64,000 nucleotides of DNA from the NCBI RefSeq assembly GCF_013155385.1, contig NZ_JABJUQ010000007.1, forward strand, positions 3,752,501 through 3,816,500, read 5' to 3'. Within the stretch, counting starts at the first letter, position 1, and the number at the start of each line of letters is the position of its first letter. The stretch comes from Bacillus sp. WMMC1349 (GTDB lineage Bacteria > Bacillota > Bacilli > Bacillales > Bacillaceae). The position numbers and the translations under genes were made by a program. Positions 6,598 to 30,224 of this stretch are shown piece after piece. The notes under the pieces are model-generated. The model saw only the letters and a program-made list of their open reading frames with translations. It was not told the origin of the DNA and ran no database searches.

Positions 6598-8406
6598 TCA
6601 CTGACTTGTACAGCTATCGTTATTAGACGAAAATGATGGTTGTTTATCATCTATTTCTCGGTCACGAAGCTGTTGGTTTGCAAGTTGTTGGTAAGTATCA
6701 TGATGTTTAACTAGCTCATGATGTGTACCGACACCCGTAATTGTTCCGCCCTCTAAAACCACAATTTGCTCTGAATTTACAACAGTTGATAAGCGATGTG
6801 CAATGACAAGTGTCGTTCTACCTTTCATTAAATGCTGAAGTGCCTTTTGGACAAGAAACTCTGAAGCGCTGTCTAAGTTAGATGTGGCTTCATCTAGTAA
6901 AAGAATCTTTGGATCACGGATTAAAGCTCGAGCAATTGCAATTCGCTGCCTTTGTCCACCAGATAGTTTAATACCACGCTCCCCAACTTCAGTATCTAGT
7001 CCTTTCGGAAACTGGGAAATAAATTCTGTAGCATGAGCAAGATCTACTGCTGTTTGAATTTCCTTCTCTGAAACCACTTTTTCCATTCCGTAAATAATAT
7101 TATCGCGAATTGTTCCTGACATTATTGGACTTTCCTGAGAGACATAACTAAACTTACTACGCCATGAACATAAACTGAAATCCTGAATATTGGTATCTCC
7201 GAGTAAAATTTCCCCGGAATTTGGGATATAAAATCTTTCTAGCAAAGCAAATAATGTCGTTTTCCCACTTCCACTTGGACCGACAAATGCCGTTGTTTTT
7301 CCATGAGGTATGATCAAGTTCACTTGTTTTATGGTCTGTTCACCATCTTTGTAACGAAAAGAAATATTTTTAAAATGAATATCCTGAGAAGGGTTTTGAA
7401 CAGTTAACTTATAGTTAGGATGTTCTTTTTGAGTAGATAGAATAGTCTGAATACTAACAGCTCCTCCCATTGCCTTCTGGAATGACGTAAAGAAGGAAGC
7501 CATTTGACTAAACGGAACCACAATCTGAAACATGTAAATAATAATGGCGACAAGAGACCCAGCAGATAAGACGCCAGATGCTACGCGAACACCACCATAA
7601 CCAATGAGTAGAACAAGAATGAGCATCATAATAAAAGATATGAAAGGTGTAATGACTGCAAGTATTCGCGCTTCTTGCAAACCATATTGAAATAAATGGT
7701 CAATCTGTGCATTTCCTTTCGTTTTTTCGGTTTTCTCGGCTAGAAAAGCTTTGACAAGGCGAATATCAGCCAACACCCTCCCTAAATTTGCAGAGAAGTT
7801 AGCCATCTCATCTTGGTTTAATTTTGAAATGTTATACATTTTTCGACCTAGCGGTGTGATAATGGCAATAGATAAGGGGACAGCAATAAGCATGATTAAG
7901 GTCATTTTCCAATCAATGAAAAGAAGAATAACAATGGAACCGATGATGGTAATGATCCCTGTAATAAAAGTAATTAAATGCTGAGTGATTAACGATTTGA
8001 TCGTATTTGTATCCTGGGTAATCCGGCTCATCGTATCCCCCGATTCATGCTGATCAAAATATGGTAAGGGCAAATGAAGAACTTGTCCCCAGAGCCTCTT
8101 TCTAATGGAGGCCACAATGGACTCTCCTATATAAGTCATGAAATAATATGAAAAGCCTGATGAAACGGTCTGAACAATAAAAGCAAATACTAAAAGAAAA
8201 ATCATTGATAGTTGTAAAGCTGATTGGGAAAGCTGATCAACTAATGATTTTGTAAATAGAGGAACAATTAATCCTGCCCCTGTCTCAAGCAAGCTAAGTA
8301 TAACAGCCACAACAAATATTTTGACAGGTGGCTTTGATTCTTTAATTAAAAGCCAAAAAGTACGAATATGATCTACTTTAGGAAGGTTCTTTTGTTCCAT
8401 CTGCAT
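6598..8406 (-). CDS. Half-size multidrug ABC exporter, BmrA/LmrA type
   Basis: 602 residues: N-terminal six-helix transmembrane domain (about 30-305) followed by a nucleotide-binding domain with Walker A GPSGSGKTT (376-384), Q loop YVSQESPIMSGTI, signature LSGGQRQRIAIARAL (480-494), Walker B ILLLDEATSNLD and switch H in VIAHRLSTV. Family knowledge: homodimers of this type pump hydrophobic drugs outward. The order of motifs and the PYFDQHESGDTMSRITQD segment closely resemble B. subtilis BmrA. The start overlaps the 3' end of the MerR gene by about 29 bp, so the regulator and pump form one operon. The last about 20 residues, rich in S, N and D, are not conserved in the family. Confidence 0.92.
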   Translation of the reverse strand: MQMEQKNLPKVDHIRTFWLLIKESKPPVKIFVVAVILSLLETGAGLIVPLFTKSLVDQLSQSALQLSMIFLLVFAFIVQTVSSGFSYYFMTYIGESIVASIRKRLWGQVLHLPLPYFDQHESGDTMSRITQDTNTIKSLITQHLITFITGIITIIGSIVILLFIDWKMTLIMLIAVPLSIAIITPLGRKMYNISKLNQDEMANFSANLGRVLADIRLVKAFLAEKTEKTKGNAQIDHLFQYGLQEARILAVITPFISFIMMLILVLLIGYGGVRVASGVLSAGSLVAIIIYMFQIVVPFSQMASFFTSFQKAMGGAVSIQTILSTQKEHPNYKLTVQNPSQDIHFKNISFRYKDGEQTIKQVNLIIPHGKTTAFVGPSGSGKTTLFALLERFYIPNSGEILLGDTNIQDFSLCSWRSKFSYVSQESPIMSGTIRDNIIYGMEKVVSEKEIQTAVDLAHATEFISQFPKGLDTEVGERGIKLSGGQRQRIAIARALIRDPKILLLDEATSNLDSASEFLVQKALQHLMKGRTTLVIAHRLSTVVNSEQIVVLEGGTITGVGTHHELVKHHDTYQQLANQQLRDREIDDKQPSFSSNNDSCTSQ

Positions 8407-20490: not shown

Positions 20491-20639
20491 TAACAACCAT
20501 CACCAAACATTCACACCCTCTATGGTTGTAAACCAACTATTAATACATGACGACCTTAAGGCGCATGTGAAATAACTTACACACTTTTCTTAACAAACTC
20601 TTTTTGCATGTTTCTTGAACAAATTGATCATTAGTCGAT

Positions 20640-20867
20640 TCATTCACCTGAATATTCTTTTAGTTGTTCAATACCGATTTTTATCGCTCTTTTTTCTGTA
20701 TGAATCAGTGATAAACCTTGTGTGATTGGACTCCAATACTCATATGAATACTCGTCATCCCATTTAAGCCACGCAAAGACTTCTGTTGTGTAAAGTCCAT
20801 CATGTCTTTTAATAATTTCAACTTTATATTCTTTACTTGGTGATAAAATTTCTTTTATAACTTCCAT
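20640..20867 (-). CDS. Small hypothetical protein
   Basis: 75 residues with AAGGGAAGTG before the ATG at 20867. Soluble, rich in E, K, W and Y (SKEYKVEIIKRHDGLYTTEVFAWLKWDDEYSYEYW...). Complete codon usage and a good start site suggest a real gene; family not recognised. It resembles small immunity-like or plasmid-borne proteins only in size and acidity. Confidence 0.55.
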   Translation of the reverse strand: MEVIKEILSPSKEYKVEIIKRHDGLYTTEVFAWLKWDDEYSYEYWSPITQGLSLIHTEKRAIKIGIEQLKEYSGE

Positions 20868-20974
20868 TTTTTCACTTCCCTTAAAAAAATGAGCCCGCTG
20901 ATTTCCAATTTTGATAATCTCTCTTATGATGTTAAAAGTGACAAAACTATGGATTAAAGAGAGAGGCGCAAAGG

Positions 20975-21105
20975 ATGATTAATATGGCTCATTTTATAAT
21001 ATCAAATTCATACCTGAGGAAGAAGGACTATCACAAAGACAAACAATTAAAAAATTTGGTATTTCAAACAATACAGTAAATAACACTAACGTTGCATTAA
21101 ATAAA
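20975..21105 (+). pseudogene. Possible transposase/recombinase helix-turn-helix scrap
   Basis: One frame reads FIPEEEGLSQRQTIKKFGISNNTVNN, a helix-turn-helix of the kind that starts IS21-type transposases, with a frameshift from the likely ATG and a stop soon after. Too short to classify with confidence. Confidence 0.35.
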
Positions 21106-21224: not shown

Positions 21225-22037
21225 ATGAGTAAGATTACACGAAAAACATCATTTGGACAATGGTTTTCACCAATAAATTTTCAACTATTATTCAAACCGC
21301 ATTATGCCATTAAAAATGATTGACTCCAGCACCGTGCCCTTAAATCTAACCCATCATCCGTGGGCTGAATTCCGTAAAACAAAAGCCGGTGTGAAGTTGC
21401 ATTTGCGGCTTGCGTTTATGGAAAAAGGGATCTCGTATCCTGAAAAGGCTGTAATCACAACGTCAAAGGAACATGACCGCGGTCAGCTTGAGGTCATGGT
21501 GGACGACAAGGAATGCATGTATGTGTTTGACCGTGGTTATTTGGACTATGAGCGCTTTGATCGCATGACGGACGATAGCTACTTTTTCCTTTCTAGACTA
21601 CGGAAAATTTGCGATTTTAAACTACCTAAAGAATCTTCTGTTTTATCCGATCAAATGGTCTTGATTGGAACACCTCAAAACCGTGCAGAGAACTACTTTC
21701 GACGGATAAAAGTGCTTGATTCCAAAGGGAATGAGCTTCAACTGATCACCAATCGATTTGATGTAAGTGCCGAAGACATTTCACAGATGTACAGATCGAA
21801 TTGTTTTTTAAGTGGATAAAACAGCATCTCCGTATCAAAAAGTTCTATGGTCAAAGTGAATGGGCCATCCAAAACCAACTATTTATTGCCTTAATTGTCT
21901 TTTGCCTGCATGTTCTCGTTCAAATCGAAACGAATAGCAAGCGGAAAACCTTGCAAATTAGCCGTTATTTGAGTGCTGCATTGTGGAAGCCAGCGCATAT
22001 TTGGTTACGAAAGATTGAAGGAAAAACGATTCCTTAA
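21225..22037 (+). pseudogene. IS4-family transposase (IS4Bsu1-like), decayed
   Basis: Starts with MSKITRKTSFGQWFSPINFQ at 21225, typical of IS4Bsu1. It then jumps by deletion to MPLKMIDSSTVPLNLTHH, which carries the first catalytic Asp region, so roughly 80-90 residues are missing. Further on are VFDRGYLDYERFDRM (second Asp, Y2 region) and the C-terminal LFFKWIKQHLRIKKFYGQS with the catalytic Glu neighbourhood damaged: the expected RWAIE codons are lost at 21800. A third small deletion lies near RLRKICDFKL. Non-functional. The element probably spans about 21130-22195. Confidence 0.85.
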
Positions 22038-22292: not shown

Positions 22293-22711
22293 CCATGGAT
22301 TCGTTTGTGATTACGGATTAACCCCCTAATTTTGGACAGTTCTAACTTAAGCTAGTTTATGCTTAAAATTTCTATAAATGTGATCAAAACCATGGCAGAT
22401 ATGAAAAAGCCAACCGATACTGGAACTGCCTATCATACCTACCTCCTCTATTATTTGACTTTATCATACAAAAAAACTTAGGCAGTTTTTTGGCTTACCT
22501 AATAGAACTGAGTTATTTTTTAATACTATTGTAAAAAGAAGCATTGTATTGTTCATTACCTTTTCCCCCTCAAGTTATCTAAGATCAATAACGCATCCTT
22601 TTTGTTACTTTTTAAAATTTAAAACAAAACCGTTTTGTCCCGCACTTTTCAAGTATAATGGACCATATTCAGATAATGCATATAATAATTCTTGGAGAGA
22701 ATTATATACAT

Positions 22712-22750
22712 ATGACGAAAAAACAAAAAACGAGGTTTAAAAATGAGTAA
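22712..22750 (+). other. 12-codon upstream ORF overlapping the dbpA start
   Basis: ATG at 22712 opens [12 protein letters not shown] and stops at 22748-22750, so its stop lies inside the second and third codons of dbpA (ATGAGTAA arrangement). GGAGAG lies about 14 nt before its ATG, which is long. It may be a leader peptide coupling translation to dbpA or merely chance. Confidence 0.35.
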
Positions 22751-24188
22751 AAGAAGTTTTGCGGACTATCATGTAAGCGAAGAAATAGAAAGAGCACTAG
22801 CTTTGTTAAAATACGAAACTCCAACAGAAGTTCAAAGAGAAGTCATACCATTAGCATTGAAAAATCAAGATCTTGTCGTAAAAGCCCAAACAGGAAGTGG
22901 AAAGACTGCCTCCTTTGGCATTCCTGTTTCCGATATGATTGAATGGGAAGAAAAAAAACCACAGGCCTTAATTCTTACGCCAACTAGGGAGCTTGCGGTT
23001 CAAGTCCGCGAAGATATTACGAATATCGGAAGGTTTAAACGCATTAAAGCAGTGGCTGTTTATGGAAAAGAACCTTTTTCGAAACAAAAGGATGAATTGA
23101 AACAAAAAACTCATGTAGTCGTTGGTACCCCTGGACGAATCATGGACCATATTGAACGAGAAACCTTAGTTTTGGATCAAATAAAGTATCTTATCATAGA
23201 TGAGGCTGATGAGATGCTTAATAAAGGTTTCATCGATGAAGTGGAAGCAATCATCAAAGAGCTGCCTTCAAACCGAGTAACAATGGTTTTTTCTGCAACT
23301 CTACCTAAAGATGTAGAAAATCTTTGCCATGAATATATGAAAGATCCTATTCAAATTGAGATTGAATCGACCAAGGTGACAGCCGATACCATTGAACATT
23401 CTTTAATTGAAGTGAGTGAAGAAGAAAAGATCTCACTCCTTAAAGACGTCACGGTTGTAGAAAATCCAGACAGTTGCCTGATTTTCTGCCGAACCAAAGA
23501 ACACGTTGATACTGTATATAGCGAACTAGATAGAGCTGGATATCCTTGTGAGAGACTCCATGGGGGTCTAGAACAAGAAGAACGGTTCTCTGTTATGGAA
23601 GGTTTCAAACTGGGGAACTTCCGCTATCTCGTGGCCACTGATGTAGCTGCCAGGGGTATTGATATTGATAATGTGACGCTTGTCATCAACTTTGACGTTC
23701 CTATGGAAAAAGAGAGTTATGTACACCGAACCGGAAGAACAGGCCGAGCTGGAAAAAAAGGAAAAGCCATTACGTTTTCGACACCTTTTGAAGGAAAATT
23801 CATTAAAGCCATTGAAAGATACATCGGCTTTGTGCTACCTGCAATAGAAGCTCCTAGCCATCTGGAAGTGTCTGGGAGAAAAGCTGCTTTCGAAGAAAAA
23901 CTTAGCGGCAGGCGAATTGTAAGAAATAATAAAACAGCCCGAATCAATAAAGGTATTATGAAACTCCATTTCAACGGTGGTAAAAAGAAGAAAATTCGTA
24001 CTGTAGATTTTGTTGGAACGATTGCAAAAATTCCTGGAGTCACAGCAGAGGATATCGGCATTATAACTATCCATGATCAAATGTCCTATGTCGATATTCT
24101 CAATGGCAAGGGCTCACTAGTTTTACAAGCCCTGGAGAATGCGACTATCAAAGGAAAGAAGTTAAAAGTGAGCAAAGCCATTAAATAA
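22743..24188 (+). CDS. dbpA: DEAD-box RNA helicase DbpA (YxiN)
   Basis: 481 residues, close to the 479 of B. subtilis YxiN. Q motif ([13 protein letters not shown]), motif I AQTGSGKT, Ia PTRELAVQV, motif II DEAD in IIDEADEML, motif III SAT, then ARGIDID (V) and [13 protein letters not shown] (VI). The C-terminal RNA-recognition domain (about residues 404-481, with [21 protein letters not shown]) is the part that, in the family, binds hairpin 92 of 23S rRNA, giving a role in 50S ribosome assembly. The start has GAGG upstream. It is intact although flanked by IS remnants. Confidence 0.95.
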
Positions 24189-24430
24189 AAAAGCACAAGA
24201 GGCAAATGTTGCAAAGAAAAAAAGGTTTTTCCGAGGGTTCGTTCCTGTTGGTACAGACCCTCGGGCGCTGGAGCCGGATTCAGAACCGCCACCTATTTCT
24301 GAACCACAGATTTTTATACTTTTTAGAATCTTAAATCACACTCACTTTAAAAATGAGGGGGATACTTGCTTCCATTAAAATTTAAATAGAAGCCAAAGAC
24401 AAAAAAATATACCATGCCATGACTAACATT
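24189..24430. other. Spacer after dbpA with G+C-rich hairpin
   Basis: Contains a stem CCGAGGGT / ACCCTCGG (about 24231-24266, 18-nt loop) not followed by a T run, and then a G+C-rich tract unlike the surrounding DNA. It may be a terminator-like structure or the scar of lost DNA; no gene seen. Confidence 0.35.
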
Positions 24431-24667
24431 CTGATCACCAATCGATTTGATGTAAGTGCCGAAGACATTTCACAGATGTACAAATCGCGCTGGGCAATCG
24501 AATTGTTTTTTTAAGTGGATAAAGCAGCATCTCCGTATCAAAACCTTCTATGGTCAAAGTGAATGGGCCATCCAAAACCAACTATTTATTGCCTTGATTG
24601 TCTTTTGCCTGCATGTTCTCGTTCTTTGATTCTGGATATTCAAACAATATTTACGCAACACTAATGC
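24431..24667 (+). mobile_element. Second fragment of the IS4Bsu1-like element
   Basis: 24431-24623 is nearly identical to 21739-21922 of the copy upstream, and here the codons for RWAIE are still present. After a deletion it resumes with a sequence matching the downstream flank of the first copy (ATTCAAA(C/T)AATATT...CGCAACACTAATG). A frameshift (extra T in the T run) is also present. Confidence 0.8.
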
Positions 24668-24675
24668 AATAATAC

Positions 24676-25668
24676 TTATTTTAGCCGATTCTTCTTTATG
24701 AATTCATCGAAGTCACTATCAATATTCTTTACTAACCTATTTTGATTAAACTTCTCATATTCCTGTATTGCTAATTGTTCTGCAACTTTTGCTGAAATCC
24801 TTCCTGCTTTTTCAAGGATTTCTCGCCCATTGAATTGAAGGAAAGCATTCAACTTCTCAATCCAATCTTTCATGTACATTGGTTGATTACGTTCTGCCTG
24901 ATCTTCTGCGTAATCAAGATACATCGTTACTATTCGATTAAGCGATTTCATTTCCTTCTCCGTCAAATAGTTTTTAGCAACTTTAACATCTTGTTTTCGT
25001 ACTTTATCGCCTTTCCAGGATGTTAAGCCCATATTTTCTTTCATTGCATCTGCTCTCTCTGCAATCAATTCAGAAGCAGTATGTCCATGGATGGCAAAAT
25101 GTAACTTGTTTTGCACCGTTGCAAAGAACTCTTTTGATACTTCTGCTTTTGCATCGTAATCTACAGCAGTAGCATAAATGTCAGTAATCTTTTGATAAAA
25201 TCTTCTCTCCGATGCCCGTATATCACGAATACGTTCAAGTAGTTCATCAAAGTAATCTTGTCCAAAGTTACGCATTTCTTTTAGACGATCATCATCCATT
25301 GTAAAGCCTTTAACAAGGTACTCATTCAAACGTTCTGTTGCCCATTGACGGAACTGTGTACCTCGATGGGAACGGACACGATAACCGATTGCGATAATCA
25401 TTTCAAGATTGTAAAAGGATACCTCACGCTCAACCTCACGTTTACCCTCAGTTTGAACTATTCGGTTTTTCCGAATAGTTGCTAATTCCTGTAGTTCTCC
25501 CTCTGCATAGATGTTCTTGACATGTTCGTTTATCGTATTGACACCTTTCTGGTACAACTCAGCAATTGCCTTCTGTGTCATCCAAACTGTTCCATTTTCT
25601 AACCGAACATCTATTTTTGTATTGCCTTCCTCCGTTTGATAAATCAAGATGTTTGTTTCATTATTCAT
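24676..25668 (-). CDS. RhuM-family protein (virulence/defence-associated)
   Basis: 330 residues matching the RhuM family: N-terminal IDVRLENGTVWMTQKAIAELYQKGVNTINEHVKNIYAEGEL, then SFYNLEMIIAIGYRVRSHRGTQFRQWATERLNEYLVKGFTMDDDRL, a helical middle, and a C-terminal region with AERNQPMYMKDWIEKLNAFLQFNGREIL. The start is backed by GGGAGGAA. RhuM was first noted in Salmonella pathogenicity islands; homologues often lie beside restriction-modification genes or on mobile islands, and the N-terminus looks like a DNA-binding module. No restriction genes are adjacent. Biochemical activity is unknown. Confidence 0.88.
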   Translation of the reverse strand: MNNETNILIYQTEEGNTKIDVRLENGTVWMTQKAIAELYQKGVNTINEHVKNIYAEGELQELATIRKNRIVQTEGKREVEREVSFYNLEMIIAIGYRVRSHRGTQFRQWATERLNEYLVKGFTMDDDRLKEMRNFGQDYFDELLERIRDIRASERRFYQKITDIYATAVDYDAKAEVSKEFFATVQNKLHFAIHGHTASELIAERADAMKENMGLTSWKGDKVRKQDVKVAKNYLTEKEMKSLNRIVTMYLDYAEDQAERNQPMYMKDWIEKLNAFLQFNGREILEKAGRISAKVAEQLAIQEYEKFNQNRLVKNIDSDFDEFIKKNRLK

Positions 25669-26044
25669 TAATGTTCCTCCCCTGTATTTCTTTTATCTAT
25701 GTTGTATTTCGTCTGCTTCCATTGCTCCCTTTATTATAGCATTTCATATAAGAGTAAGTATGGATTGACATGCATGGAATCAAGAATCTCTATGTTGCTA
25801 TAATTGAATTTTTAAACAATTACTGTTACATAAATATTTACATTTCCTGAAACGTTTTTGTAATCTATAATGATACCAAATCCCATTATGTAAAATTTCC
25901 TTACAAACTTATATGATTTCACATCTGTTTTGGCAAACAAAAAAGAAAACATAACGTTTCCTTGTAAGCGTAAAACAGTTCCCACTATAGACAAACAAAT
26001 AATCATGAGATAATCTCTTCAAATAAAATTGAGGAGGTTTTCTT
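25669..26044. other. Intergenic, nothing recognised
   Basis: AT-rich DNA between rhuM and an IS66 scrap. The only open frame (25812-26006, minus) has no ribosome-binding site and no family resemblance. Confidence 0.4.
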
Positions 26045-26452
26045 ATGACCAGAAATTCCAATCTATAATTACATAAAAAGTGGAAACAGAGGATTGCTGA
26101 TTATAAGGTGAGCGGACAAACTCAGGTTAAATGGTGCGAAGCCAATGACATAAGTATTCATCAGTTTAAGTATTGGATGAAAAGGATTAATAATACTAGT
26201 GATACAATGAAGACAAACAACCCTTGGGTTCCAATTGCTATAGAAGATGAAAGCCTGAGGTATCTGAATCCCTACAGCTCAAGATCAACTCTGTTTCCAT
26301 TGTAGTGAATACCGGTTTTAATCCTACCCTTCTGCAGAAGTGATAAAGGTATGAAAGAGAATGTTAAATGAAATCACTGTAGCTCGAGTCTACCTCACTT
26401 GTGGAAGTACAGATATGAGAAAATCGATTGACGGATTAGCTACTCTAGTTAC
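26045..26452 (+). pseudogene. IS66-family remnant (orfA and start of orfB)
   Basis: From the ATG at 26045 the frame reads MTRNSNL, a stop, then KWKQRIADYKVSGQTQVKWCEANDISIHQFKYWMKR, which is the usual small IS66 OrfA (TnpA). At 26361 begins MLNEITVARVYLTCGSTDMRKSIDGLATLV, the universal start of IS66 OrfB (TnpB), cut after about 30 codons. The large transposase is absent. Confidence 0.85.
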
Positions 26453-27289
26453 AGTTTATTGATTTCATTTTTTTCTTACCCTCCGACAGTTTATTTTTAT
26501 TTTCTAGATTAATGACTTTCTCAAGATAAACAAATGAATATATCTCTCTACCTTCCTCGAAGCTGTTTTTAATGGTATTTAACACATTACTAACTCCTAT
26601 ATTAAGTTGTAGTACTCTATTAATTGAATCCACATCACCTTTAGTAAGATTTTCTCGTTTACTATAATCTAAATAGTAGTTTTTAATTCTAATAAATTCT
26701 TCTGTTTTAATTTTTAGTGTATTATCTGAAGTAATCTCTGGTATTGTAGCGGCGTTATACTTAATGGAAACTTCATTTTGCTATTAGCAAAATGAAGTTG
26801 GTGTTTTCCCTTGTCAATTAAGAGCAAATAATCTATTTTAAAGCCTAATATATTTAAGTCACGTAATATCTTATTTGTGTTTAGTCGGTACTGAAAAGTC
26901 TTATCGTATTGGACTTTAGGGTTTCTTCGCTCATGCAAATAACCCCATTTCACAGTTTGCTTCAAGTGTCTTCTGATTGTTGTTGGAGCCGATTTAAGTA
27001 TTACTTCTGCTCCTAATTCGTCGGAATTCTTATAGATCCATCCATGCACTAAAGCTCCCTCATCAGTCTTATTTTTGTTCTCAGCCTTGATTACCATTTC
27101 TTCGTTATAAAATTGCACATAATCATATCTTCTCACTATCCAATATAAAAATTGATTTAGAAGCAGTTCTTTTTTGGGACAACCTAGCAATTCCACAAGT
27201 TCTTCCCTAACCACCACGCGCTTCATTTTATAGCCTTCGATGACCATCACTCCTATTAATTCAAAAAATCCCCAGCGCAATAACCACAA
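26445..27289 (-). pseudogene. Replication-initiator-like protein, frameshifted
   Basis: The first frame (26714-27289) has FLYWIVRRYDYVQFYNEEM, GWIYKNSDELG, PTTIRRHLKQTVKWGYLHER and NILRDLNILGFKI-like segments: a winged-helix layout typical of phage and plasmid replication (DnaD-like) proteins in Bacillus. The reading continues in another frame from about 26760 with IPEITSDNTLKIKTEEFIRIKNYYLDYSKRE and a charged C-terminus to 26445. The start is probably the internal ATG at MKRVVVREEL. A single indel near a 31-bp palindrome breaks it. Replication role is inferred from the layout. Confidence 0.55.
26769..26799. repeat. 31-bp perfect palindrome
   Basis: AACTTCATTTTGCTA, one central T, then TAGCAAAATGAAGTT: 15-bp arms, no mismatch. 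It lies at the frameshift point of the replication-like gene. Confidence 0.85.
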
Positions 27290-27328
27290 AAAATGGTTTC
27301 ATAGCGTTGGAGATTTCCCTTGTTATAT

Positions 27329-27804
27329 TCAATTGATATCATTATTTAATTCATAGTATTCAATACCCTTACTTAATAAAATATGAAGTAGTGCATTTAT
27401 TTTTATAGATCTTTCTCTACTTGTCCTTTTCAATATAACGTATATATCATCCTGCAAGAAGAAAGATTTCTTATTACATAACTGCGAATGATCTACATTG
27501 ACATATCCTTTAATAAGTTCTAATTCCATGTCTCGTTGGATAGGATTCTTAACTATTGTTTTTTTATTACCACTAACATAATCTTTGTCTTCTTTTAAAA
27601 TAACAATTTTATTCGTTATTGACCTGCTGAGCGATTTTTCTGGATGATTACCCCTATAATCCATGAGCCTTCTTCATAGTCAAACTCGATTGATGCACTC
27701 TTTAATTTATTTACAATAAGCCTTTCACTCTTCTGAACTAGCTCAGCAATATCAGCTATTGATTTCCCATCATTTAAAAGTAGTAGTACTTCTTTTAATT
27801 GCAA
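27329..27804 (-). pseudogene. Small HTH plasmid/phage-type protein, probably frameshifted
   Basis: A TTG at 27804 behind AAAGGAGGG starts LQLKEVLLLLNDGKSIADIAELVQKSERLIVNKLKSASIEFDYEEGSW, an HTH-like segment ending at 27616. A second frame (27329-27664) overlaps it by 49 bp and continues YRGNHPEKSLSRSITNKIVIL... to a C-terminal stretch (DDIYVILKRTSRERSIKINALLHILLSKGI) that resembles the ribbon-helix-helix type of plasmid regulators. The join is natural at SW/YRGN, so I read one broken gene. Two coupled genes remain possible, as AAGAAGG lies 3 nt before the second ATG. Confidence 0.5.
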
Positions 27805-28050
27805 TTTCACTCCCTCCTTTCTGACGTTTTTATACATTGTATCTTTAATTTTTTATATTGCTAGGGAATTTTTAAAAAAATTATTTCTGAATCCATTATG
27901 ATAATTTTTTTATTCAGAACAGACTATATTTTTATTACGGCCACTGAAATTTAACACCTCTGCCATCTTTTTTACTAATGATTGCTACAAAAGTTACCAC
28001 TCAGTGCCACAACATTTACAATTGGGAGAGCTATTGGATTTTTAATGATA

Positions 28051-28097
28051 AAAAAGCCAAATTCCTCTTTATGTCTAGCAAGGGAATTGGCTTTTTT
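28051..28097 (-). terminator. Strong bidirectional terminator
   Basis: Stem AAAAAGCCAAATTCC / GGAATTGGCTTTTTT, perfect over 15 bp. It is the likely end of the EEP nuclease transcript 240 bp away; nothing else is recognised in 27838-28336. Confidence 0.8.
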
Positions 28098-28336
28098 CTA
28101 CCCCAAACGCGCCCTATTACTTTGGATAAAAACCTTTGTGGTTAATAGTAATGAAATTAATTTATTATAAGATTCTCCCATGTAAATAATTAGAAAATAA
28201 ATCAAAAAGACCACATTAGGAAGTAAGTTTAATCACATGAGACTCTATCAGTCTGCCGAATCTTTCTTCTTAGTTATCGCTGTTTATTATTTGTCCAATT
28301 GAAAATATACTGAAGACATGAGAATTCCCTATTAAC

Positions 28337-29203
28337 TTAATCAATGCTTATGTCTGCTGATAGAATAGCATGATCAGGAAGTCTAATATCATTAGTGGTG
28401 AATTCACCATATCCATTCTTCTTGTTTTTAAAACTCCAACTATACTCCACATTGGATGCAGCAATACTTTTACTCGTGATGATATGGTCTAGCTTAAAGT
28501 AATTACCCCATGAAGGGACGTTCCCTTTTGGTGTGTGTAAAAAATATCCACGTTCTTCAATTGCATCTTTCAATATATGATAATTATAAGTGTCATACGA
28601 TACATTAAGTTCTCCTTTAGAAGTATAACGATACTCCTCTCGAACCTCTGAATATTTTCTAGCCAAGTTTCCATTAATTTTCGCGTTATTAAAATCACCA
28701 CCAACAATGATATTTTCCAACGTACTCAAATGATCTATTAGTGCTTCAAGTTGCTCTCTTCTGTCTAAAAAGTCTTTTTGTGAGATTTTCTTATCAACAC
28801 GTATACGTACCCCAATGATTGATAGTGATTTCCCGTTATATTTAACCGTAACTTGAAGAAAATTCGGTCTTTCAACCTTTTCCGTATTCATTTCACTAGT
28901 ACTCACGACTGACTCTAGATTTAGCCCTTCAATATTCTTTAGTGCGATCAAAATTCCATTTTGACCACTCTCATGTGAAATGAACAAAGAATATCCGTTT
29001 TTTTCTAAATTATATTTGAGCTTTCCCCATCCAGTAGTTATAACAAATTCAGTTAATACTATTATATCAGCGGTACTTGCATCAGGATTCTTACCCATTA
29101 ATTCTGATGCTATAAACAAAGGTATGGTATAAGCCGGTTCGTTTTCTCTTTGCACTCCACTGCGCCCATTTATATTCCATACCTTCATTTTCAAGTTATT
29201 CAT
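28337..29203 (-). CDS. Endonuclease/exonuclease/phosphatase (EEP) family protein
   Basis: 288 residues in the EEP (DNase I-like) fold: N-terminal KVWNINGRSG, metal-binding glutamate in DIIVLTEF (about 49-56), SLSIIGVRIRV, the catalytic GGDFNNA (about 168-174), FKLDHIITSK and the final PDHAILSADI with the catalytic Asp-His. No signal peptide. It lies alone next to the recombinase fragment at rlmH, so it is likely island cargo. Substrate (nucleic acid or phosphoester) cannot be told. Confidence 0.85.
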   Translation of the reverse strand: MNNLKMKVWNINGRSGVQRENEPAYTIPLFIASELMGKNPDASTADIIVLTEFVITTGWGKLKYNLEKNGYSLFISHESGQNGILIALKNIEGLNLESVVSTSEMNTEKVERPNFLQVTVKYNGKSLSIIGVRIRVDKKISQKDFLDRREQLEALIDHLSTLENIIVGGDFNNAKINGNLARKYSEVREEYRYTSKGELNVSYDTYNYHILKDAIEERGYFLHTPKGNVPSWGNYFKLDHIITSKSIAASNVEYSWSFKNKKNGYGEFTTNDIRLPDHAILSADISID

Positions 29204-29280: not shown

Positions 29281-29843
29281 ATACTATATATAATGTACCA
29301 ATGGAAGCCTTTGAACAAAATATTCTTCCTATTGCTATATTACAGGAAAGGCTTCAAAAGGTCTCTCACCAAAAGGCAGAATTAGAACAGAGAAGAAGCG
29401 AGTTAAGTGTTCAATTGAATTCAGCAGATTTAAAGGTAATTCAACCTGAAATCATTAAATCTCTAATCGAAAAGTTTATAGATGTGTTTAAAGAGTCATC
29501 TAGAGATAAACAGAAACAACTCTTTCAGCTTTTACTAAACAAAGTTACAATCATGCAGTTGAAGGATCGTTCACGTTCTATCAATTCAGTTGAACTTGGA
29601 TTTGATTTTTCTGAACTCAATATCTCTAGGACATTTACACTTATTCACATACTTTATCTTGAATCAGACACAAACGAAGGAGATATCCCTCTTATATCTG
29701 ATTCAAAAGATAAAATACCCTTTTATTTACAAAGGTTTTTGCCTCTATTTATGATACGGCTCCCCCCGATTAATCCGAAAAGCCCGATAAACCTGCTCTA
29801 CCAAAATCAACCTCATCAGTTGATGCGGAAACGTCATTCGTGA
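29281..29843 (+). pseudogene. C-terminal fragment of a large serine recombinase
   Basis: From about 29281 to the stop at 29843 the frame carries the coiled-coil and end region of a large serine integrase: ILQERLQKVSHQKAELEQRRSELSVQL, IKSLIEKFIDVFKESSRDKQKQLFQLLLNKVTI and RSINSVELGFDFSE. The catalytic N-terminal domain, recombinase domain and zinc ribbon are all missing. The last about 30 codons (from [11 protein letters not shown]) run through the 3' end of rlmH in antisense. Large serine recombinases integrate elements by att sites, and CcrAB/C of staphylococci do so at the end of rlmH. Confidence 0.8.
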
Positions 29844-30224
29844 AAAGGACAGCTTGTCATTCGCTCGTTTCAGCACATCATCGCTCAGGCCGAGTGAGCC
29901 GCCGATGACAAAGCAGACTTTGCTTTTTCCATATGTAGCTAGCCTATCGATATGATCGGCTAATTCCTCCGAAGTTTTCATTTTTCCTTCGATCGCTAGA
30001 GCAATGACGTGGGCATCTTGGCTGATTTTGGCGAGGAGGCGTTCTCCTTCTTTGGCTTTGACGATTTTCATATCCTGTTCGCTTAAATTTTCTGGTGCTT
30101 TTTCATCAGGCAGTTCGATTATCTCAACTTTTGCATAGGCTGAAAGTCGTTTTATATATTCATCTATTCCTTGTTTCAAATATTTTTCTTTTAACTTTCC
30201 AATGGCTACAATCGATATATTCAC
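29745..30224 (-). CDS. rlmH: 23S rRNA (pseudouridine1915-N3)-methyltransferase RlmH
   Basis: 159 residues, the usual length of this SPOUT methyltransferase, which methylates pseudouridine 1915 in helix 69 of 23S rRNA. Motifs: [26 protein letters not shown] at the front, [34 protein letters not shown] (SAM loop) and the end [33 protein letters not shown]. The final codons TATCATAAATAG are the region used as attB by SCC elements. The gene itself is intact. Confidence 0.97.

Follow-up and report, generated by a model that had tools for sequence, protein, structure and literature searches.

A recombinase remnant runs into rlmH

The window (the whole 64-kb stretch of Bacillus DNA analysed here) contains an intact rlmH gene and, adjoining it, the C-terminal part (~30%) of a large serine recombinase (LSR) gene that runs unbroken into the rlmH antisense (Table 1). 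The recombinase frame is open on the plus strand from 29280 and has an ATG at 29301. It passes across the TAT CAT AAA TAG end of rlmH and stops at 29841-29843, 99 bp into the rlmH antisense.

An intact LSR of 571 amino acids adjoins rlmH in a genome of the same genus (G028). Residues 402-570 of this protein match window positions 29292-29798 at 61% identity (tblastn, E 4e-58) without a gap or a stop, which confirms the initial annotation of the C-terminal third of an LSR ending in the rlmH antisense. The window fragment alone reached no recombinase family in Pfam or NCBIfam, and its identification thus rests on its relatives. The rest of the G028 recombinase had a single other match at E <= 1 in the 64-kb window (31 amino acids, E 0.18), indicating that the catalytic part is absent from the window. 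The break in the recombinase lies near residue 400 both here (402) and in G048 (400); the two had no shared motif and this was taken as coincidence.

Table 1. Features of the window at and to the left of rlmH
Feature	Position	Strand	Basis or remark
RhuM family gene, probable cargo	24676..25668	-	PADLOC candidate PDC-S05
Small ORFs, possible cargo	25812..29203	.	No match found in compared relatives
Endonuclease/exonuclease/phosphatase-like ORF, possible cargo	28337-29203	-	Pfam E 0.0003, below cut-off
C-terminal LSR remnant, up to the inferred crossover centre	29292..29760	+	Matches G028 recombinase (571 aa) from residue 402 onward
Recombinase-side att half, TTTTTGCCTCT-ATTTATGA-TACGGC	29736..29760	.	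Window read against the attP of seven relatives
rlmH, intact	29745..30224	-	269.8 bits against NCBIfam RlmH NF000985 (cut-off 172)
rlmH last codons, P-Y-H-K-stop; element side of the crossover in the model	29745-29759	-	
Dinucleotide TC at the inferred centre (GA on the strand of rlmH)	29761..29762	.	From aligning the window with seven relatives, whose attP is near-symmetric
Read-through of the recombinase frame into the rlmH antisense (host side of the junction), stop included	29763..29843	+	

We scanned genome contigs with the fragment and obtained 63 loci, many of which matched through rlmH alone. Thirteen of the 63 were opened. Five of these (L010, L011, L012, L013 and L028) had a recombinase frame of 583-654 codons next to rlmH, indicating that the position of the fragment beside rlmH is not due to chance. 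The frame adjoining rlmH in the other eight was partial, broken or cut at a contig end. The fragment had a single match in its own genome (E <= 10). Within the genus, the fragment without its rlmH part was matched in 6 of 44 genomes, weakly and away from rlmH in G015 and G016.

Both ends of related elements define an att site

We found both ends of the element in seven relatives, with sizes from 4.0 to 41.2 kb (G028, 20,528 bp; G012, 17,788; G044, 41,219; G046, 26,859; G056, 20,999; G048, 3,954; G051, 7,962). The joined ends (attP) of all seven are near-symmetric about a TC that lies at the centre of both junctions. This TC is GA on the rlmH strand and falls in the Glu codon of the RGE(P)YHK end of RlmH. 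The half-sites are of two kinds. Those of family 1 (G028, G012, G044, G046 and G048) have the arm TTTTTGCCTCT, 8 nt, and then TACGGT; the symmetry is imperfect in two of the five, with one mismatch in the inner part in G046 and one in the arm in G048. Those of family 2 (G056 and G051) have the arm (T)TTTACCCT and the inner part TACGGT. The window att half has an intact 11-nt arm, and its base adjacent to the centre is C, as opposed to T in the seven relatives. Among 30 rlmH loci retrieved from the 44 genomes of the genus and judged by eye, a family 1 end was present in four (that of the window's own genome, L084, L085 and L087) and a family 2-like end in one (L104).

Predicted empty sites were compared with the available loci, and for three of the seven elements we found a match across the ~1-kb join: L089, from the same genus, for G012 (92.3%), L052 for G056 (83.0%), and both L032 (97.9%) and L022 (78.9%) for G051. 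The predicted empty site of G048 was matched over only 465 bp at 71.6% (L027), and those of G028, G044 and G046 had no match among the loci compared. The recombinase frame is broken in two of the seven elements (G012 and G048) and partial in G051.

The far-end arm of family 1 (27 nt, at most three mismatches) was found in 43 of 397 genomes of the order and 29 of 135 genera, compared with 1 of 397 genomes for a reversed-pattern control. The family 2 arm was found in 22 of the 397 genomes and 21 of the 135 genera (control, 0). The left neighbour at 53 distinct family 1 arm places was host-like in 12, of a TTACCACTATTTGTG type in 8, of a recombinase-end type in 2, and of some other kind in 31.

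The eight TTACCACTATTTGTG-type places (L168, L169, L176, L179, L182, L201, L202 and L213; loose match) have a different conserved end adjoining the far-end arm. An end of this type also adjoins rlmH itself in other genera (L027, L033 and L042). It is another element type at the same site.

The second att copy that the initial annotation expected 9-20 kb away was not found. There was no convincing att-like motif in the 60.3 kb scanned up to rlmH (the part of the window left of rlmH and 30 kb further left), and neither the family 1 nor the family 2 far-end arm was present in the own genome at three or fewer mismatches. A 65-nt arm query of that genome gave only three matches, of 14-25 nt. Since its far end is gone, the insertion in the window is a scar.

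Part of the DNA to the left may be cargo

The 9 kb to the left of the recombinase had been proposed to be decayed cargo. This holds best for the RhuM gene, the product of which is 76.2% identical to that of G012, 74.2% to that of G028 and 72.1% to that of G046. The RhuM gene is inside the element in G012 and G028. In G046, where further att-like copies are present at 7,137 and 8,478 of the fetched region, the gene is outside the 26.9-kb element and has att-like copies on both sides. In addition to RhuM, the G028 element encodes a type I restriction system. The proposal does not hold for positions 20615-21056 and 22400-24385 (dbpA), which are present in the same order in the sister genome G006. 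G006 had no match to the recombinase fragment, and the dbpA block (20.6-24.4 kb) was therefore ruled out as cargo of this insertion. Plausible cargo thus shrinks to ~5 kb (24.4-29.2 kb). For seven other small ORFs at 25.8-29.2 kb, the compared regions of relatives gave no match at E <= 1e-4.

Two pieces of an IS4-family transposase region (21742-21921 and 24431-24624), 97-98% alike, flank dbpA (22743-24188) in the window. In G006, an ORF of 435 amino acids that by eye resembles threonyl-tRNA synthetase (L024:8383-9690) lies between dbpA and an att-like site.

The recombinase is related to Ccr but separate from it

Among curated models, the intact relative in G028 is closest to CcrB and then to CcrC, and all Ccr scores are below the NCBIfam cut-offs: 374.9 bits for CcrB (cut-off 900), 328.4 for CcrC (900) and 133.9 for CcrA (700). 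The score for XisF was 151.8. In a tree of 38 rows, which left out four near-identical CcrB rows (L137, L138, L140 and L141) and a duplicate (L163) and contained no CcrC row, the rlmH-fused recombinases L010, L011, L012, L013 and L112 formed a clade with 100/100 support. Two others that are also rlmH-fused, L028 and L149, paired elsewhere (96/87). Staphylococcal CcrB and L145 formed a 100/100 group without any rlmH-fused recombinase, and CcrA was far off; the branches linking the rlmH-fused clades, the CcrB group and CcrA were weak. The target is thus shared with the staphylococcal cassette chromosome (SCC), the resistance cassette of MRSA, and the recombinase family is not.

Four of the seven relatives have a second LSR. 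In three of these it lies upstream on the strand of the first, and in G046 it is at another place on the opposite strand. The second LSR of G028 scored 102.8 against CcrA (cut-off 700). We found no ccrAB pair, and there is no second LSR in the window. The initial description of the island as SCC-like stands for the serine recombinase remnant at the rlmH codons used by SCC and for the central TC/GA; it fails for Ccr itself, given the CcrB score and the separate clade.

Phage and plasmid origins were considered and rejected: identity was below 60% in all 252 phage records with a match (top-ranked, 33.6%) and in all 44 such plasmid records (top-ranked, 39.1%). The attP pattern had one match in viral contigs (L166), in which stops break the frames that span the site. 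In G397, a CcrB-like recombinase (L162:1477-3066; 410 bits, below the cut-off) overlaps the end of rlmH in another frame and has the C-terminus LTYGTVPPD-stop.

Proposed history of the insertion

We suggest, with a probability of roughly 85%, that what remains in the window is the rlmH-side end of an SCC-like integrative element that carried its own LSR and inserted at TC/GA in rlmH. At the level of sequence, this reading draws on the homology of the remnant, both ends of seven relatives, the near-symmetric attP, three empty sites and the read-through. The LSR of the element would recombine attP on the circle with an attB located in the final codons of rlmH, with the exchange at the central TC/GA. 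Because the end of the element would itself encode P-Y-H-K-stop, the last part of RlmH, on the opposite strand from the recombinase gene, rlmH would stay whole. In intact relatives the crossover would fall within the 3'-terminal part of the recombinase gene. Integration would then place the last codons of that gene at the far end of the element, and join the rest of the gene to the rlmH antisense. We infer that this recombinase catalyzed the insertion, and that the former left end was like the left ends of the relatives. The remnant presumably cannot move by itself, as it has lost its far end and most of the recombinase.

The scar might also have formed in another strain and arrived together with rlmH by homologous recombination, with no insertion in this lineage. 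The failure to find a left end, in the 60.3-kb scan or in the arm searches of the own genome, is in keeping with such an import. So is a comparison of two relatives. Long matches between the elements of G012 and G028, the last of which extends into rlmH, show 90.6-98.3% identity, and the value is 98.3% over 4,050 bp that include the recombinase end and part of rlmH, as against 81.5-92.0% in the flanking chromosome. A stretch with the recombinase end and rlmH can thus travel between species, and these figures indicate that a recent exchange involving the two elements is likely. However, the left flank of the window is collinear with the sister G006 up to 24385 (91.5% identical), and a RhuM gene typical of these islands is beside the scar. 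We therefore consider import of the scar unlikely.

Two further explanations are much less probable. If the island were a true SCC, the fragment would be a decayed ccrB or ccrC. The target and the central dinucleotide are the same, and CcrB and CcrC are the best NCBIfam matches of the intact relative, but the scores of that relative are far below the cut-offs of 900, and the 100/100 group of CcrB and L145 excludes the rlmH-fused recombinases (in the tree without a CcrC row). Such an origin is highly improbable. We give just as little credence to the idea that the fragment encodes a small functional protein by itself. Its frame remains open across the 169 residues aligned with G028, but the catalytic part is missing from the window and rlmH-side remnants of other lengths exist. 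Insertion of an element with its own, non-Ccr LSR remains the reading that we prefer.

The recombinase gene appears to cross the crossover point

In the integrated form, the recombinase frame runs on into the rlmH antisense. The inferred ending in the circle is FMVRFTVVI-stop for G028, G012 and G046, FVVRFTVVI-stop for G044, FMIRFTVVI-stop for G048, and, in family 2, LMIRFTVTLDRVNN-stop for G056 and FMIRFTVTLNRVK-stop for G051. Integration would swap this C-terminus for an arbitrary tail of rlmH antisense, and the integrated recombinase would therefore differ from the form that integrates.

We looked at the best 120 of at least 1001 database proteins with E <= 1e-100. All 120 contain the crossing motif L-[FL]-[MV]-[VI]-R-F. 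The tail scored as rlmH antisense above all 200 of its own shuffles in 102 of these 120; such tails are 13-152 residues long (median 16). The other 18 tails are short, unlike, or near misses. This sorting supersedes an earlier, cruder one of the same 120 tails (86 fused, 5 natural-like and 29 other).

It is conceivable, though we hold it only tentatively and think it rather unlikely, that the gene is split in such a way that only the circle completes the recombinase. The last codons at the far end (T-V-V-I-stop in family 1), 4-41 kb away, would then be selected as protein, and the arrangement would act as a sensor of the integration state. A codon test on 57 family 1 arms (55 places and 2 new; 31 distinct) is consistent with this. 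TVVI-stop is kept in 42 of the 57 arms and 16 of the 31 distinct ones, compared with null means of 16.2 and 6.1 (0 of 20000 trials each, kinship ignored). There was no excess in the two shifted frames, and the stop is kept in 56 of the 57. Single changes in family 1 were synonymous in 10 of 21 distinct cases, compared with 13 of 45 possible (P 0.011, kinship ignored).

We think it more probable that the read-through and the far-end codons are meaningless, with an accidental tail and with arms that are kept only as DNA binding sites; this would concern the split gene and leave the scar as it is. The rlmH-antisense tails among the best 120 of the at least 1001 homologs vary widely in length. In the predicted structure of the G028 recombinase (mean pLDDT 78.5, pTM 0.42) the end is of low confidence, with pLDDT <50 at residues 556-563 and 565-571. 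The same codon test on 24 family 2 arms (13 distinct) gave no synonymous excess (P 0.55), and the L162 recombinase overlaps rlmH in another frame. The codon result in family 1 argues against an accident, as does the finding that the two half-sites vary at different positions. In a comparison of halves from different sources, with the left half inferred from residues and also bound by rlmH codons, the sixth base from the centre varies in 37 of 57 right halves and 0 of 120 left halves, the ninth in 11 of 57 and 0 of 120, and the tenth in 2 of 57 and 40 of 120. The seventh base varies in 3 of 57 right and 10 of 120 left halves (P 0.55).

Comparison with known islands

In SCC, the ccr genes are internal. 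The recombinase gene of the window family, in contrast, has a terminal position in the element and extends across att; its product scores lower than the Ccr cut-offs and does not fall in the CcrB group. Like SCC with CcrAB or CcrC, these elements have an LSR, the 3' end of rlmH as a target and a central GA (here inferred from the near-symmetric attP of relatives), and the circle att has inverted repeats that include the last rlmH codons (here in the relatives only, as the window is without one end). A central GA is required by CcrAB (PMC10581047).

LSR islands downstream of rlmH, with tandem composites and empty sites, have been reported in Bacillus and other genera (PMC10061031), and rlmH islands are described in Bacillus cereus, Geobacillus vulcani and others (PMC10581047). 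An SCC-type island in Bacillus had been put forward as extending this route beyond its usual hosts; going by the accessible parts of these two papers, LSR islands at rlmH in Bacillus were already published. Compared by description, the Pol-SSB-bearing LSR islands (PMC10061031) are similar to ours in target, tandem composites, empty sites and conflict genes such as restriction-modification. The enterococcal form, ECC, also has rlmH as target and an att of ~50 bp with inverted repeats in the circle; unlike the elements here, it is described in E. faecium and is carried by ccrAB-Ent (PMC6222049; again compared by description).

The closest parallel to a recombinase gene that crosses att is that of the Dehalococcoides DsiB islands, in which a CcrB-like recombinase always overlaps att at its 3' end, the stop codon is supplied beyond the island, and the protein was suggested to be fully functional perhaps only on the circle (PMC3146451). 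Those islands differ in target (ssrA, as opposed to rlmH here), and no codon test is given in the accessible part of that account. In the main text of PMC10083194, as far as available, rlmH is absent. Our literature search, which was thin on subscription journals, found no paper on a recombinase that crosses att at rlmH.

The rlmH route thus appears to be used by non-Ccr recombinases in the order to which this Bacillus belongs, with a single far-end signature in 43 of 397 sampled genomes. The recombinases are directly testable, as predicted att sites are available. The split gene, if true, would be a simple coupling of recombinase form to the integrated or excised state of the element. The same idea was put forward for DsiB in 2011 (PMC3146451) and can now be assayed. 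Caution is needed with database entries: the 102 of 120 tails noted above (best 120 of at least 1001 proteins) score as sequence from the antisense strand of the host gene.

Composite islands and other elements

Decayed recombinase ends were also found joined to far-end arms. In G005, such an end is joined to another arm ~10 kb from rlmH. In L180 (G773), a decayed end with 34 codons open upstream is joined directly to a far-end arm and ends FMIRFTVVI-stop.

The recombinase genes of G012 (L115) and G028 (L112) are identical over more than 500 bp and then ~93% identical. The frame of the G012 copy is broken by one-base gaps, due to sequencing error or decay.

A partial second 3' end of rlmH is present ~10 kb from the full gene in G006 (Bacillus changyiensis; L024/L113, residues 76-159) and ~6 kb from it in G037 (Bacillus swezeyi; L036, about residues 107-159). 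Beside the partial ends of both there is a similar C-terminal SEC-C-like ORF (named by eye). These partial ends point to older insertions at the same place.

Contig C8 of G000 (88.5 kb; L233-L237) consists of ~4.3 head-to-tail copies of a ~20.44-kb unit with another serine recombinase, and is either an excised multi-copy circle or an assembly concatemer. The recombinase of this unit stops ~26 bp inside the integrated end and so does not cross att. The unit is also present once in the chromosome at 99.9-100% identity; besides C8, the loci concerned are C7:3993591-4014032 (L238 and L239) and part of C5 (L240).
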